From assembly GCA_003833135.1 (NCBI GenBank), contig QZLH01000230.1, positions 1-64,000 of the forward strand: a stretch of 64,000 nucleotides of DNA, given 5' to 3'. Both the position numbers and the translations under genes were made by a program. Below the pieces are notes generated by a model. The model saw only the letters and a list, made by a program, of their open reading frames with translations, made no database searches and was not told the origin of the DNA. This document shows positions 3,608-58,800 of the stretch, in pieces. This DNA comes from Oehlia diaphana (lineage: Eukaryota; Glomeromycota; Glomeromycetes; Glomerales; Glomeraceae). Every line of letters starts with the position of its first letter. Positions within the stretch are counted from its first letter, which is position 1.

Positions 3608-4214
3608 AATTGCAAGATTGCGATACTTTTTATATTAATTTTATATAATAAAAAGTGAGTTGCAATATTGCGATTCACTTTTTTGATTTTATATAATAAA
3701 AGTGAGTTGCGATATTGCGATTCACTTTTTTATATTAATTCTATATAAAAAAGTGAATTGCAGTATTAGGATTCACTTTTTTATATGATTTTTAATATAA
3801 AAATGTTGAATCGCAATATTTCGAGAAAAAACGGTGCGAAAACGTTTTTTTCATAATATTATATTAAAAAAATGTTTCATTACGTTTTTTTTTTGATATT
3901 TCAATAATAACGTTGTGAAAACAATTTTTTTATAATGTTATATTAAAAAAAATGTTTTGCAATATTTTTTTTCAATATCTTAATAAAAAAATGTTGCAAA
4001 AACATTTTTTTTCATAATATTATATTAAAAAAAAAAGTTTTGTACCGTTTTTTTTCAATACTTTAATAAAAATAGTCCTGAAATTTTTCAGGTTTCAGGT
4101 CAGGTCAGGTCAAACAGACAACCTGATATAACCTGATTTGACCTAACCTGAAAAAAAATTTCAGGTCAGGTTTATCAATTAATCTGACCTAACCTGATCC
4201 ATTTGGAACTCTAG
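3608..4214. mobile_element. Hairpin-array element A (left end missing)
   Basis: Tandem self-complementary units of about 65 bp (GTGAGTTGCAATATTGCGATTCAC and variants) separated by TTTATATAAT spacers, then AAAATGTT/AACATTTT hairpins, then a subterminal zone (4075-4214) full of CAGGT and ACCTG in both orientations. It ends CTGATCCATTTGGAACTCTAG, the reverse complement of the terminal motif of element B at 41649. The left terminus is lost at the N. No open frame; a non-autonomous element is the best description. Confidence 0.65.
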
Positions 4215-33757: not shown

Positions 33758-36410
33758 ATGCCTAATCATCGTAAAAATAACAACAGTAACTCCAGAGAGA
33801 GCCCTGCTATTTGAAAAGAGAAAAGAAAAGAAGCAGCCAATGGCTCTTCTTCAGATACTTCCAGTTCAGATACTGAATAAAATAAAATTAACAAAACTCC
33901 TCAAAAAAGAACCAGAATTACTTCAAAAGATGATATGGTCATATGGATGAAGACTTTACTGCCAAAATAGCAGTGGCAAATATGGACTTGGGTGCTTCTA
34001 CTTTCCAGCCCATTGTTCTCATTCCTGCTGGCCTTCTTCTCCAAACGGTACTGCACAAAATGCGCAGTCAAAAAATGCATTGCCTAATTCAGCCAACGCG
34101 TCAATGCATAATCCTACCAACAATGATTTCACCTTCTTAAACATGTCAACTGATAAGGAAGTGATAAACAAAAACTCCAGTGATCATACATCCAAGCCCA
34201 CTATTTCTATTCTTAAACAAGATTTTTAGACTGCAGCCACTCCTAATGCGTTTCCTGAATTCCTTAAAAATATCCAACTAATAGGGCAATAATTGACGCT
34301 ATCAATAATCTTTTTTTAGAAACTTACCAAAGTTATATTGGTAAAGCTAAAACCATTGGAAAAGACGAATCTAAATGTCTTATCATACATTTTTATACTG
34401 CGAAAGATCAAGACACTTGTGTCAATAGTTTCCATTCTGATCTTGCCAATATTAAATTTCATGCTTACAATTCAAAACAACTAAAGCTCGCTAAGGATTT
34501 GTGAGCTGTCCAAGTCACAGATATTCCTTTCTTTATTTCCAAGGATGATATTATTGCAATGTTCAAATGCTTCGGCAATATTGATTCATACCACCTACAC
34601 ATGCGTACCAATTAAAGCTCTAAATGGTCTGGATTGGTCTGGATTGGGGAGTAACCCAGGATCAGACTGAAAAATTAGTTCATTTCGGTCTGGTCCAGTT
34701 TATATTAAAAGGAGAATCTGGGACCAAACTAGACCAGACCAGTTATTTTGGTCCAGTCTGGTTTGGTCCTATAATAAAAAAATGTTTTGATAACATTTTT
34801 TAATTATAATTACTTAGAAAAAATGTTTCACAACATTTTTTTGTTAAGTTAATTAAAAAACAGTGCACAAATATTTTTCTTATAATAATATACTTAGAAA
34901 AAATGTTTTGCAACGTTTTTTCGTTAAGTTAATTAAAAAAAATATTACGCAAACATTTTTTTTATAATAATATACTTAGAAAAAATGTTTCACAACATTT
35001 TTTCTTTAAATTAATTAAAAAATGTTGTGCAAATGTTTTTTTTAATTAAATATACTTAGAAAAAATGTTTTGCAACGTTTTTTCTTTAAATTAATTAAAA
35101 AAATGTTGCACAAACATTTTTTTAATTAAATATACTTAGAAAAAATGTTTCACAACATTTTTTCTTTAAATTAATTAAAAAAATGTTGCACAAACATTTT
35201 TTTAATTAAATATACTTAGAAAAAATGTTTCACAACATTTTTCTTTAAATTAATTAAAAAAATATTGCGCAAACATTTTTTTAATTAAATATACTTAGAA
35301 AAATGTTGTGCAATATTTTTTCTTTAAATTAATTAAAAAAAATTGTGCAAACGTTTTTTTTATAATAATATGTTAAAAAAAATGTGACACAACATTTTTT
35401 TATTTAATAATTAAATAATTGCAACAGTTTTAATATAAACCATTGCGTCCAGTTCCAACCCATTTAATTCAGTTCAGGTTAGATTTATAATCTGAAACTG
35501 GACTGGACCAGACTGAATATTTTAGTCTGGGTTGAAGCATCAACCCAGACTGGACCAATCTGAATTTTTAGTTCGGGTTGTCAGATTAGGACTGACCTGA
35601 TTAGAGCTTTAGTGCCAATTCTAAAGTTCAGCAAGTTCAGATTGTTTTTGATAGTGCTGACACCATCTGACACTTTAATGATCAATGGGCGGTTTACTGT
35701 TACTCCATCTGTTTGCAAATCACCCATGTCATTTCACCCAAAGAAATCTTACCAGAAATTTATCACACTACTTACTCAGCTTCCCGCCAATACCAAAGAT
35801 ATTGAATTTAGTACCGCTTGTTCACCAGTTAAGTGCAAAAGCGGTTAATAATGTGCTCTTATCTCTTAACTCATATAATCCTAAAAGATGGGTCTATGTT
35901 ATCTTTAGTTTCCAAAAGCTCCTTAACACTACTATGAAACTGACGATTGCTCTTTAGGAATACAATCTTAAATGGAATCTTTCAGCCAATACTACAAAAT
36001 TCTGTCATTATTGCGGTAAACTAAGTTGTAATCTGCAGTTTTGCCCTCTACGTGAAGAAAGAGAACGCTTGCATATTCATAATCCAGTGGCCAAGTTTTA
36101 AGACAGATTTAAGCTTAATCAATCTGGCAACTATCATGCTAATTCTGACAAACCACGATCAAGATCATGTTCTAAATCCCGTGATCGATCCCATTCTAAG
36201 GTTTTTCACTCCAGATCTGATAATGCTAATCCTGATCAGTGCAATCAGAAATCTTCCAATAATAATAATAAACAACACCACAGTTCTGACCATGCTCATC
36301 CTAAATCTAAGGATCGTAATGGCAAGGAATGCTCTGTTTCCTTTTCTGCTGATAAGCGTAATTCCTTATCTCAACCTAACAATAAGACACAACTGCTATA
36401 ATGAAGACTC
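33758..36410 (+). pseudogene. LINE ORF1 (RNA-binding, zinc knuckle), broken
   Basis: From MPNHRKNN, a Ser/Lys-rich start, through QDTCVNSFHSDL and VTDIPFFISKDDI (RRM-like zone) up to MRTN at 34613, where element C is inserted; the frame resumes at 35621 with SKVQQVQI. A Cys knuckle (CHYCGKLSCNLQFC, near 36003) and an Arg/Ser/His-rich tail follow. Stops include 33875, 34227 and 34502; several are explained by CAA, CAG or CGA becoming TAA, TAG or TGA. The tail lies in a 384-bp tandem duplication. Confidence 0.7.
34614..35611. mobile_element. Hairpin-array TIR element C inside the LINE
   Basis: 998 bp inserted in LINE ORF1. Ends are AAAGCTCTAA on the left and TTAGAGCTTTA on the right; flanks are GTACCAATT (34605-34613) and GTGCCAATT (35612-35620), an 8-9 bp target duplication with one mismatch; removing the element restores MRTN-SKVQQ. 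Interior: seven units of 79-82 bp starting TACTTAG (34811, 34891, 34973, 35053, 35133, 35213, 35292), each with two hairpins (AAAAATGTTTCACAACATTTTT and AAAAATGTTGCACAAACATTTTT). Both flanks of the array carry GGTCTGG/CCAGACC motifs in both orientations. No coding capacity. Confidence 0.85.
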
Positions 36411-36912
36411 CTGGTAACTTTAATATATCTAATCAAACTGATCAACTTAATGAAATAATGTTCATTCTAAAGGATATTTGTGAAGAAATAGCCAACATTA
36501 AATAGCGTATTCTGACCCTAAAGCTTTCAGATCAAACTATGATCAAGATCATGTTCTAAATCCTGTGATCAATCCCATTCCAAGATTTTCTGCTCCAGAC
36601 CTGATAACGCTAATTCTGATCAGCAGAATCAGAAATCTTCCAATAATAATAATTAACATCACAGTTTTAACCATGCTCATCCTAAGTCTAAGAATTGTAA
36701 CAGCAAGAAACACTTTGTTTCCTTTTCTGCTGATAAGCTTAATTCTTTATCTCAACCTAACAATAAGATACAACCGCCTATAATGAAGACTCCTGGCAAC
36801 TTTAATATATCTAATCAAACTGATCAACTTAATAAAATAATGCTCATTCTAAAGGATATTTGTAAAGAAATGGCTAATGTTAAATAGCGTATTCTGGCCC
36901 TGAAGCTTTCAA
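36157..36912. repeat. 384-bp tandem duplication in the LINE
   Basis: Two head-to-tail copies, 36157-36540 and 36541-36912, both starting GATCAAGATCATGTTCTAAATCC and both containing CATGCTCATCCTAA, TTTCCTTTTCTGCTGATAAGC and GAAGACTCCTGG. Both carry the same AAATAGCG stop (near 36505 and 36888). Divergence is about one base in ten, mostly transitions, so the duplication is old. Confidence 0.85.
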
Positions 36913-41648: not shown

Positions 41649-42132
41649 CTAGAGTTCCAAATGGATCAGATTATCTGTTTAACCTGACCTGAACTGAAAC
41701 CTAAAATTTTCAGGATTATTATTAAAATATTAAAAAAAAAATGGTTAAACCATTTTTTTTTTGAAATATTGCAATCTACTTTTTTATATTAAAATCATAT
41801 AAAAAGGTGATAGCAATAATACAACCAACTTTTTTTATATAAAATCTATATAAAAATGTGAATTCCGATATCACAATTCACTTTTTATATATAAAATATA
41901 AAATCTATATAAAAATGTGAATTCTAATATTGCAACTTATTTTTATTATATAAAATCAATATAAAATGTGAATTATAATACCATAACTCACTTATATAAA
42001 ATTATAGTTTTAGGTCAACAGGTCATTCAGGTTATATTGATATTATAACCTGAATTGCAATTGCTAAATCTAACCTGATAAATTCAGATCAACCTATCAG
42101 GTTACCTGAATTTGGTCAACCTGTTTTTTCAC
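41649..42132. mobile_element. Hairpin-array element B
   Basis: Starts CTAGAGTTCCAAATGGATCAG, the inverted match of the right end of element A (4194-4214). A zone of ACCTGA/TCAGGT motifs follows, then units TATATAAAATCTATATAAAAATGTGAATT...AATTCAC, then again CAGGTT/AACCTG motifs to about 42130. The right terminal motif is not intact (it fades at AACCTGTTTTTTCAC). Same family as element A. Confidence 0.65.
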
Positions 42133-55812: not shown

Positions 55813-58800
55813 TTAAATTTCTAAATAACTTACATCGTCAACTTTAGGAGCATTATCTTTGAAAGAATTATCATCACCTGCATTTTCTATCATACTTGCT
55901 TCCAAATTTTCCTCGAATTGGTTGTTATCAAAAGATACGAACGAGGTATCGGCACCAGCTGAAGGCTTTAGATGTATGGGTATATCTTGACCAGATTGAA
56001 TTAAATCTTCATCTTGACTCAAATCCACATCATCATCATCATCATCATCATCCTGGATATCAAAAACTTCCTTTGAACTGAAACTCGAAGAGGGGTATTG
56101 TTCATCCAAATTCTCACTTGGTTCTAAATTATCATCAAAACCAGCTAACTCTACTTCGTTAGTAATTTCGTTTGGAATAATATCCTTATTTTGTTTCAAG
56201 GGTTCGGTTGAAAGTTCGTTTGGAATGATATCCTCTTCTTGTTTCAAGGGTTCAGTTGAAAGTTCGTTTGGAATGATATCCTCTTCTTGTTTCAAGGGTT
56301 CGGTTGAAAGTTCGTTTGGAATGATATCCTCTTCTTGTTTCAAGAGTTCAGTTGAAAGTTCGTTTGGAATGATATCCTCTTCTTGTTTCAAGGGTTCGGT
56401 AGAAATAACAACGCGCTTTATTATAGGTTTGACATTTTCATCATCACCATCTTTTTTATCTTCGAATGGGATAGCCGTCTGGTGTATCACAGAATCCTCC
56501 TCTAAAATAGTATCAAAATCGTCAATCGATACGTCTTCTTGTTGCACTACAAGCTCATCTTGACTGAATATTGATGACAAGTGTTCGGTTAAATCGTTTG
56601 CTCCTGGATCTTTATTATCAGGAATAAACCTATAAAATATTGATGGATATATAATATAAATATAATGTAACCATATCATCCCAGAAATTATTCATAGGCT
56701 CACATTCGATATCCCGGTTCTTCAATTTCGGCATCAAAAATAAAAAGTTTTTTAGATAACGAAAAACTAGCAGATACGTTTTTCGACCAATTTTGATGGA
56801 TTTCTAAACAACGTAGACCTTCAGCAGATCGTGATTTGCGATGATGTGTAATCATCGACTACATTTTCATCATATAGGGATTCGCTATTTTAGTTTATCA
56901 AATCGATACTAATTTAAAGGAAATATTATGTACGCACCTTATATAATACGGCCATAATTAAAAATAAGTCTTTTTGCAAATTCACGACTTGATCATCATT
57001 ATAATCCTGCATATTAATATCTCCACGAATTTCTCGAAGACATTGTGTAAATTCTTCATTAGACATCAGATCACCAGTATAAATACGCTTATCCGGATCA
57101 TTCTGTCACATAAAAAAAAGTTTATTAATCTTTCCTAAAAATTAAATGTCTTCGTTACATACCTTCCCGTAAAATGACAGTAACGTTCGCCAAAACTTTT
57201 TCTGGTTTGTACTAGCTTTCCAACAACCTTTTGATGCCAAATATAAAATTTGACCTAAAGTTTCGGCTCCTAACCTGATAATACAATGATATTGCCTTTG
57301 TATCAATAAAATCAAGAGGAAAAATTCAATGTCCACCAATGTTGGAATTTCAACGATAGAACTTTTCATTGTAGTAACATTTCTTTCTGATAAAAACTTC
57401 TCCCAATTAGTCAAAAGTCGATCACGTGTAGATAGATTTTCAAATAAGGAAGCTAAAGCATTTACAGGCGACTCTTGCTTATTTGCAGATTTTTCTGAAT
57501 CTTTTATCTATTTAAAATAAACAAGTTTAAACACAATTGATTTATATATATTAATTTATATGCATAAAAAAAACAAAAAAACCTTGAGACAATCTTGTAA
57601 ATTAGGGAAAATATGTCTTAGAAAATCTCTAATCTCTCCATTTTCTATATACCAAGCTGCGGCCATTAAGAATCTGATAATTTAACCAAATTAAATTAGC
57701 GGCAATATAAATATGTACAAAAAAAAATAGATGGAGGTACCTATCCAAGTCGTATGGGGCGCAAAATGCTATTTTATCCACCTGAAGTGCCATTTTTGAT
57801 AACCACTTTAATGTACTCGATTCTGCTAGATTTTCTTTGCCAACTTCTTTGTATAAGATTTTAAGAAACTTTTTATGACCAGGCAAAACGAAATTTTGTG
57901 TAATATTATCTTCATTTTCAGAACACAACCTAAAGATATTATCCGCTTCCTCTTTTTTGTTTAACCACGAATAATCAAAACATTGCAATAAAACAAGAAG
58001 TTGATGAGAAACATCGCTAATGCGTTGGCACATTAGATAAATAAAGTGGCTAATCGGACGTGCAGGATCGCGGAAAGTTTCACGCCGGAAATATAAACAT
58101 GACTTGAATTTTAAGTAAGCAACATTTAGGTGGTCTTGATTTTTTTGTATTGTGGAAGCATTTTGAAATTGTATTAAATCAGAGGTGGCAAGATATAATT
58201 GGAAGTAACCGTCATGTCGTAAGCTTCTTGAAAGATACTCCTTTAAATTGAATGATCAATAATTATGATTCATATATTATAATAATTCAATATATAAATG
58301 ATGATAATAAAAACCTGTTGAAAACGCGTCCACTTCTCCAATAACTGAGCGTTTTGCGATTTTGGAATTTCCCAAGTTTTAACTAATTCCGAAAATTCAT
58401 TCACAAGTCTATCAGATTCTTCTGGTGACCTATGTTAAATTAAATAATAATGTGGTATTAAACAAAAAAAAAATCGAATATTTGCGAACGATTTACCTCA
58501 TATTCAAGGATAACCTCACAACATTATCATTTGCAAAAAATATCAATTCGGTGGGTTCATGTAAAGGCTCCTTTTGATTATCGATAGTAGCCTCCAATTT
58601 ATACTTTGGAAATGTTGTTTTGACAAAAGTATTCCATTCTAGACTATCAACAAAATTATACCGCCGTTGCATTACGTGTTTCCATGCTCTAACGAAGTAT
58701 TAAGAGTAATAATTAGATAAGAATAATAATCATTAAATAATTAATAATAGATTTCGGGAATATATTAAAAATATTAAAAATCGAAACCCGAGCAATTCTA

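Follow-up and report, generated by a model that had tools for sequence, protein, structure and literature searches.

A hairpin array inside a probable non-autonomous hAT transposon of Oehlia diaphana is common to families with different ends

The window analysed here is a stretch of 64,000 nucleotides (positions 1 to 64,000 of contig QZLH01000230.1, forward strand) from the genome assembly GCA_003833135.1 of the glomeromycete Oehlia diaphana. It harbours a non-autonomous hAT-type transposon, designated family A, which occupies 999 bp on the plus strand (34613–35611) and is delimited by its ends, a target duplication and copies elsewhere in the genome. The ends are exactly matching terminal inverted repeats (TIRs) of 11 bp, TAAAGCTCTAA, located at 34613–34623 on the plus strand and at 35601–35611 on the minus strand: these are the two exact matches to this sequence in the window. 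By itself the 11-mer is not rare, as three occurrences with no more than one mismatch are present in the window against 2.84 expected, and support for the ends derives from the copies elsewhere instead. On either side lies one copy of an 8-bp target duplication, GTACCAAT at 34605–34612 and GTGCCAAT at 35612–35619, with a single mismatch between the two. A sequence-only reading of this stretch had proposed an element with defined ends, which the 11-bp TIRs and the multiple copies with the same ends bear out; it had also given the duplication as GTRCCAATT, which is real but 8 bp long, the ninth base (T) being part of the TIR. No open reading frame (ORF) of at least 170 amino acids overlaps the element.

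The transposon is inserted in a stretch resembling ORF1 of a LINE. When the element and one copy of the duplication are excised, one frame is continuous over the join. The earlier contention that deletion restores the LINE frame is thus correct in that the frame crosses the join and the site is exact, but other stops persist on both sides. A search of the assembly with 200 bp of each flank fused together disclosed four other places that align across the join, one at 84% (C239) and three at 68–69% (C673, C853 and C576), which indicates that the insertion site is present in an empty state in relatives of this LINE. Within the host LINE, just downstream of the element, there is a 382-bp tandem duplication (36149–36911). 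An ORF near the element displays 66% identity to a protein of Funneliformis mosseae, with further matches in Entrophospora, Gigaspora, Rhizophagus and others.

The interior of the element is a tandem array of 14 hairpins spaced ∼40 bp apart (34775–35415). TRF assigns to these coordinates a period of 80 bp, 8.0 copies and 85% matches, and a hairpin scan of the window copy shows that the orientation mostly alternates between the hairpin and its reverse complement. The 80-bp unit therefore consists of two inverted halves of ∼40 bp each, in agreement with the earlier description of 80-bp units that each fold into two hairpins. The array reads almost the same on both strands: in a search with the whole element, the minus strand of the window was matched with 76% identity over the array. 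The predicted folds are markedly more stable than those of shuffled sequences, with z = −15.2 for RNA and z = −12.7 for DNA (20 shuffles each). The repeated core can be viewed as a hairpin of an A-tract and a T-tract alternating with its own reverse complement, and its ancestral form, as judged from the less decayed copies, would have been close to AAAAAACGTTGCGAAAACGTTTTTT. The length of the array differs between copies.

Two end zones, recognized by motif count and end alignment, frame the array. The left zone (34613–34772, plus strand) contains six GTCYRG and two CYRGAC motifs, whereas in the right zone (35425–35611, plus strand) the motif is found mostly in the opposite orientation, as two GTCYRG and five CYRGAC. 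These 15 motifs compare with a mean of 0.40 and a maximum of five in 2000 mononucleotide shuffles, which confirms the zones of GGTCTGG/CCAGACC motifs in both orientations that had been noticed around the array; within the window array itself no GTCYRG or CYRGAC was found. The GC content is 42% and 39% in the end zones and 15% in the array.

Two further elements in the window share this architecture and are assigned to family B. One of them lies on the minus strand at 3608–4213 and comprises two kinds of hairpin array (3608–4075), an AGGTC zone and the end TAGAGTTCCAAATGG (4199–4213); its other end was not found, and the start given is that of the array. The other lies on the plus strand at 41650–42130, the last coordinate being approximate, and includes the end TAGAGTTCCAAATGG (41650–41664), the only one found, and an array (∼41745–42015) with AGGTC-like motifs on both sides. 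The fold z values are −13.8 and −3.7, respectively. The hairpin of the family-B arrays in the window is partly different in sequence (AAAAAGTGAAT...ATTCACTTTTT). The window also contains tandem repeats of 50 bp (1127–1633; 10.2 copies, 92% matches) and 48 bp (56167–56405; five copies), the latter inside an ORF of 292 amino acids.

Searches of the 108.8-Mb assembly with end patterns of family A retrieved 50 left-end and 45 right-end matches, with none for the reversed-pattern controls. Pairing by eye yielded 28 same-strand pairs of ends, 26 of which span 456–2576 bp; two same-strand pairs, on contigs C1251 (14953–20959) and C1101 (13103–19210), measure 6.0–6.1 kb. Twenty-one fetched copies, the window copy included, have both ends aligned and range in length from 614 to 1901 bp (seven loci overlapping others were left out of the end alignment and the duplication test). 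Thirteen of these 21 copies are flanked by 8-bp duplications that differ at no more than one position, in comparison with 3 of 420 cross pairs; the remaining eight have no such duplication. For two of these eight, L007 and L032, a comparable repeat appears, by eye, to be offset by two to three bases. Copies, duplications and empty sites, which the sequence-only reading had suggested looking for, were therefore all found, and the copies have defined ends. Among the best 40 of 606 candidates from the whole-element search, a sample that makes copy numbers taken from it lower bounds, the copies that match over nearly the full length are 73–80% identical to the window element, and family A is thus not the outcome of a recent burst.

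The aligned ends disclose how the copies have aged. Twenty-four columns, eight in the left end and 16 in the right, are split between TG and CA, most of them with some CG; this analysis also left out L075, L022, L083 and L028 for the left end and L071 for the right end. Columns of this kind are the signature of CpG sites that have decayed, on one strand or the other, and the ancestral subterminal motif was probably GGTCCGG/CCGGACC, of which the GGTCTGG and CCAGACC of the sequence-only reading would be decayed versions. Transitions exceed transversions 3.0-fold in the left end and 4.0-fold in the right. As a YpR context accounts for 46% of the pairwise transitions in the left end and 57% of those in the right, CpG decay makes up a large part of the change, not all of it. 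CpG methylation of transposable elements is reported in an account of R. irregularis (PMC8647823), and the strong CpG component in the decay of the O. diaphana copies is what would be expected if they were methylated.

The same type of decay offers a test of whether the hairpins are maintained. Each hairpin arm has one CpG-derived dinucleotide, and a constraint on pairing predicts that TG in the left arm should be accompanied by CA in the right. The test covered arrays of at least four hairpins (34 arrays, 297 hairpins; eight overlapping loci were left out). The arm states match in 93 of the 297 hairpins, against 95.8 expected from the margins; within-array shuffles gave a mean of 104.5 matched hairpins and reached at least 93 in 1956 of 2000 cases, and arms taken from neighbouring hairpins match at a frequency of 0.35–0.39 against 0.31 for true pairs. 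In left arms TG outnumbers CA by 146 to 44, and in right arms it is CA that predominates, by 138 to 34, although ACGT is symmetric. The arms hence decay independently, and no selection for hairpin pairing is seen in resident copies; any function of pairing during transposition itself lies outside the scope of this test.

The 8-bp duplication, the TIR beginning with TAAAG, the clustered subterminal motifs and a relative with hAT coding sequence (L034) together place the window element in or near the hAT superfamily. The hAT TIRs are short and begin with YARNG: TAAAGCTCTAA is of this type at both ends of the window element, and so are the ends TAGTGTTCCGATCC of a coding hAT, L091. The 8-bp target duplication of hATs is present in family A in the proportion given above, and clustered short subterminal repeats, another hAT feature, occur at both ends of the window element. 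With respect to the target preference nTnnnnAn known for Hermes, the 13 duplications agree only in part, with T at position 2 in seven cases and A at position 7 in six. Domains of hAT type are numerous in the genome, as shown by a scan with PF05699 in which 150 of 273 candidates were scored. The previous verdict that the element fits no named family consequently needs amending as regards the superfamily, which is hAT or near it; it stands as regards the interior, since no description of a hairpin array common to families with different ends was found in the open-access literature.

A hAT partner for family A is likely but not proven. The family-B element L034 carries the end TAAAGCTCTAAATGG, with the same TIR as family A at the single end seen, AGGTC subterminal motifs and a decayed hAT coding sequence; its other end falls outside the locus. 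Its match to PF05699 (Dimer_Tnp_hAT) has E = 3.4e-4 and 20.8 bits, just under the Pfam cut-off of 21.4. When a 41-residue piece of L034 was used as query, 34 genome matches were obtained at E ≤ 1. One of them, with E = 9.3e-6 and 48% over 40 residues, falls between the family-A ends of the 6.1-kb C1101 pair; by simple arithmetic, a given 6.1-kb stretch would include one of the 34 by chance with a probability of ∼0.002. A second piece of the L034 transposase gave eight genome matches, none in the C1101 pair, and neither 6-kb pair was among the matches listed by the PF05699 scan, which scored 150 of 273 candidates, or by a query with the L075 transposase, for which 150 of 155 candidates were scored. 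The C1101 pair is a possible candidate for the autonomous partner.

Other candidates were examined and discarded. L075 (C1594) encodes a hAT C-terminus ∼740 bp from a perfect TIR: comparison with L089–L091 places its own ends, TAGTGATCC..., ∼50 bp inside a family-A fragment, which identifies it as a nested element and not a partner. This nested hAT (L075:529–2050), with its TAGTGATCC end, is interrupted in turn by unrelated sequence with what appear to be helicase-like ORFs. In L010, a TIR match lies close to a kinase-like gene, an association taken by eye to be due to chance, and a KDZ transposase search gave two genome matches, both on C1154 and away from all pairs. Elsewhere in the genome, L091 is a hAT with an ORF of 606 amino acids and 14-bp inverted ends, TAGTGTTCCGATCC, for which no matching 8-bp duplication was found. 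Four hAT loci on four contigs (L055, L056, L057 and L058) are 99.9–100% identical over 2.05–2.12 kb, a likeness that reflects either recent activity of this hAT or duplication of the sequence.

The hairpin array extends beyond family A. Its core, AAAAAAYRTTRYRAAAAYRTTTTTT, has 303 exact matches in the genome and the reversed pattern has none. Locus L044 contains a 907-bp element with a perfect TIR, TAGGGCTCCGATCG, and an exact AATTTAAA duplication on both sides, in which CGGTTTCGG-type subterminal motifs are combined with 11 hairpins of the window-array core; its end pattern recurs at 49 places in the genome, with no match for the control. On contigs up to C286, which hold 100 of the 303 core places, a count by eye put an exact core within 1 kb inwards of six ends out of 12 for the L044 type and of eight out of 20 for family A. 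The array further adjoins motif zones of CAGATC type in L041 and L056, of GGCTCGAG-like type in L083 and of GCAATT type in L087 and L088. The core is constant among the families, the spacers between cores vary, and the TIRs are alike by eye (TARNGNTCY). L087 also includes, at 2169–2390, a 222-bp element with TIR TAAGGTTGCTTGCC, an exact 8-bp duplication CAGATCAC and TGCCGAAAC-like repeats; a similar element is found at L028:1212–1455.

When the window array was compared with the fetched loci, eight of which were left out as they overlap others, the best bit score (571 bits, at 83.4% identity over 596 bp) was that of L088, whose ends are not those of family A; the best-scoring family-A locus was L006, with 553 bits. 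Higher identities over shorter stretches were observed for family-A loci L027 (90.2% over 326 bp) and L008 (87.4% over 412 bp), and many other family-A copies are 72–82% identical to the window array. A second subtype of right end, recognized by eye, has one spacer type in all nine copies typed (L002, L004, L007, L025, L031, L076, L080, L082 and L085), whereas spacer types are mixed, again by eye, among family-A copies with the first subtype: arrays thus follow the ends in part. L088 is a mosaic. In steps of 150 bp, window-like units (85–90%) extend to ∼1740 and are succeeded by family-D units (82–93%); the left flanking zone resembles L087 (87%) and the right one L056 and L045 (82%). Recombination inside the array may have left this pattern, which is seen at one locus and may also stem from misassembly, to which tandem arrays are prone. 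L087 independently pairs window-type spacers with GCAATT zones, an observation that backs the sharing of arrays and not the breakpoint in L088.

In our preferred reading, to which we assign a probability of about 0.78, the window element is a non-autonomous hAT transposon moved in trans, and arrays have at times been exchanged between hAT families by recombination. By analogy with hATs such as Hermes, a transposase encoded elsewhere would recognize the 11-bp TIRs and the clustered subterminal motifs and move the element by cut and paste, giving rise to the 8-bp duplication. The array core, which recurs between different ends and partly with identical spacers, would at times have been passed among families through recombination inside the array, for which L088 is the best case, and the copies would decay after insertion with a strong CpG component. 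The superfamily is a known one, hAT: what is unusual is a hairpin interior common to several families. The mover might instead belong to another superfamily. Target duplications of ∼8 bp are also made by P, Merlin, KDZ/Zisupton and Novosib elements, a TIR and a duplication alone are compatible with these, and the hAT match on C1101 is short; hAT is indicated by the type of TIR, by the clustering of subterminal motifs and by L034, the relative with hAT coding sequence, and KDZ is represented by those two matches on C1154 outside the pairs, which renders a non-hAT mover very improbable. A further proposal regards the array as a functional module under selection, acting either as DNA (a platform for transposase or host factors, or a cruciform) or as RNA (a precursor of small RNAs). 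It draws on a core that is alike in several families with differing spacers and ends, on the same architecture in family B with a partly different hairpin sequence and on predicted folds more stable than shuffles, less so at 41650–42130 (z = −3.7), where 1 of 200 shuffles was as good. The independent decay of the arms (93 of 297 matched, 95.8 expected) weighs against it, the uncoupled changes lend no support to the small-RNA version, and exchange or common descent can account for part of the conservation; we consider selection of this kind doubtful.

How families with different ends came to possess the same array can be explained in other ways. Slippage of AT-rich palindromes might have produced arrays in each family independently, and the likeness would then be convergent. 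AT-rich tandem arrays do expand easily and the family-B hairpin is partly different, but the window array and those of L088 and L087, located between different ends, have spacers in common and not just cores, and 303 exact core matches stand against none for the reversed pattern: convergence is hardly credible. Vertical inheritance from one ancestral hAT that carried the array, with ends diversified beyond recognition, is a more serious contender that we nevertheless rate as rather unlikely. The mutual resemblance of the TIRs, the closer identity of family-A L027 and L008 to the window array and the partial correspondence of array type and right-end subtype in family A are in its favour; it does not readily accommodate the L088 mosaic or window-array spacers that are common to L088 and L087 and absent from many family-A copies. 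The exchange that we prefer can be taken further, in a proposal that we advance as speculative: the array would be a transferable cassette, inside which recombination would bring together the left end of one hAT family and the right end from a second. If this were true, array-bearing elements would test new combinations of ends and capture new transposases, and the dyad symmetry of an array that is alike both ways would allow exchange in either orientation.

Many of the repeats found in arbuscular mycorrhizal fungi lack a classification, including two thirds of the transposable elements in an account of R. irregularis (PMC11075540). A hairpin array shared by several hAT families could provide a means of assigning some of these, and a class of AT-rich satellites would be explained as transposon interiors. 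The system also furnishes a concrete case for testing the swapping of ends between transposon families.

The window element is reminiscent of several known systems. It is MITE-like in being short, bounded by TIRs, present in multiple copies and associated with a target duplication, and in that no coding sequence was found in it. MITEs are usually smaller than about 600–800 bp, a limit exceeded by the 999 bp of this element and by part of the 614–1901 bp range of the 21 copies, and unlike MITEs this ∼1-kb element encloses a tandem array of variable length. Helitrons and DINEs are not known to possess a TIR or a target duplication, and the window element differs from them in having the two. DINEs, in which the tandem repeats are central, and the Drosophila foldback Tetris resemble it as non-autonomous elements with tandem repeats, which can seed satellites; the same source describes DINEs as Helitron-type and locates the Tetris repeats in the TIR (PMC9659126). 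In foldbacks such as Tetris and Galileo the TIRs are long and built of repeats, whereas here the TIR is 11 bp long and the array is central. Closer parallels come from the hATs themselves, for which an 8-bp duplication is described as typical and subterminal repeats as usual (PMC4763223, PMC10368747). Hermes shares with the window element the 8-bp duplication and numerous short repeats in the subterminal zone of each tip, which in Hermes are bound by BED domains; it differs in being autonomous and in having AAG(T/C) as the repeat, and the part of the source on which this comparison draws mentions no hairpin array (PMC10368747). The Ac/Ds system of maize, with its Ds-like non-autonomous hATs, has TIRs of 11 bp and subterminal repeats like those of the window element, and Ds depends on transposase made elsewhere (PMC3260210). 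Unlike Ac/Ds, the element described here resides in a member of the Glomeromycotina and has an interior of alternating hairpin half-units that is found in other families as well.
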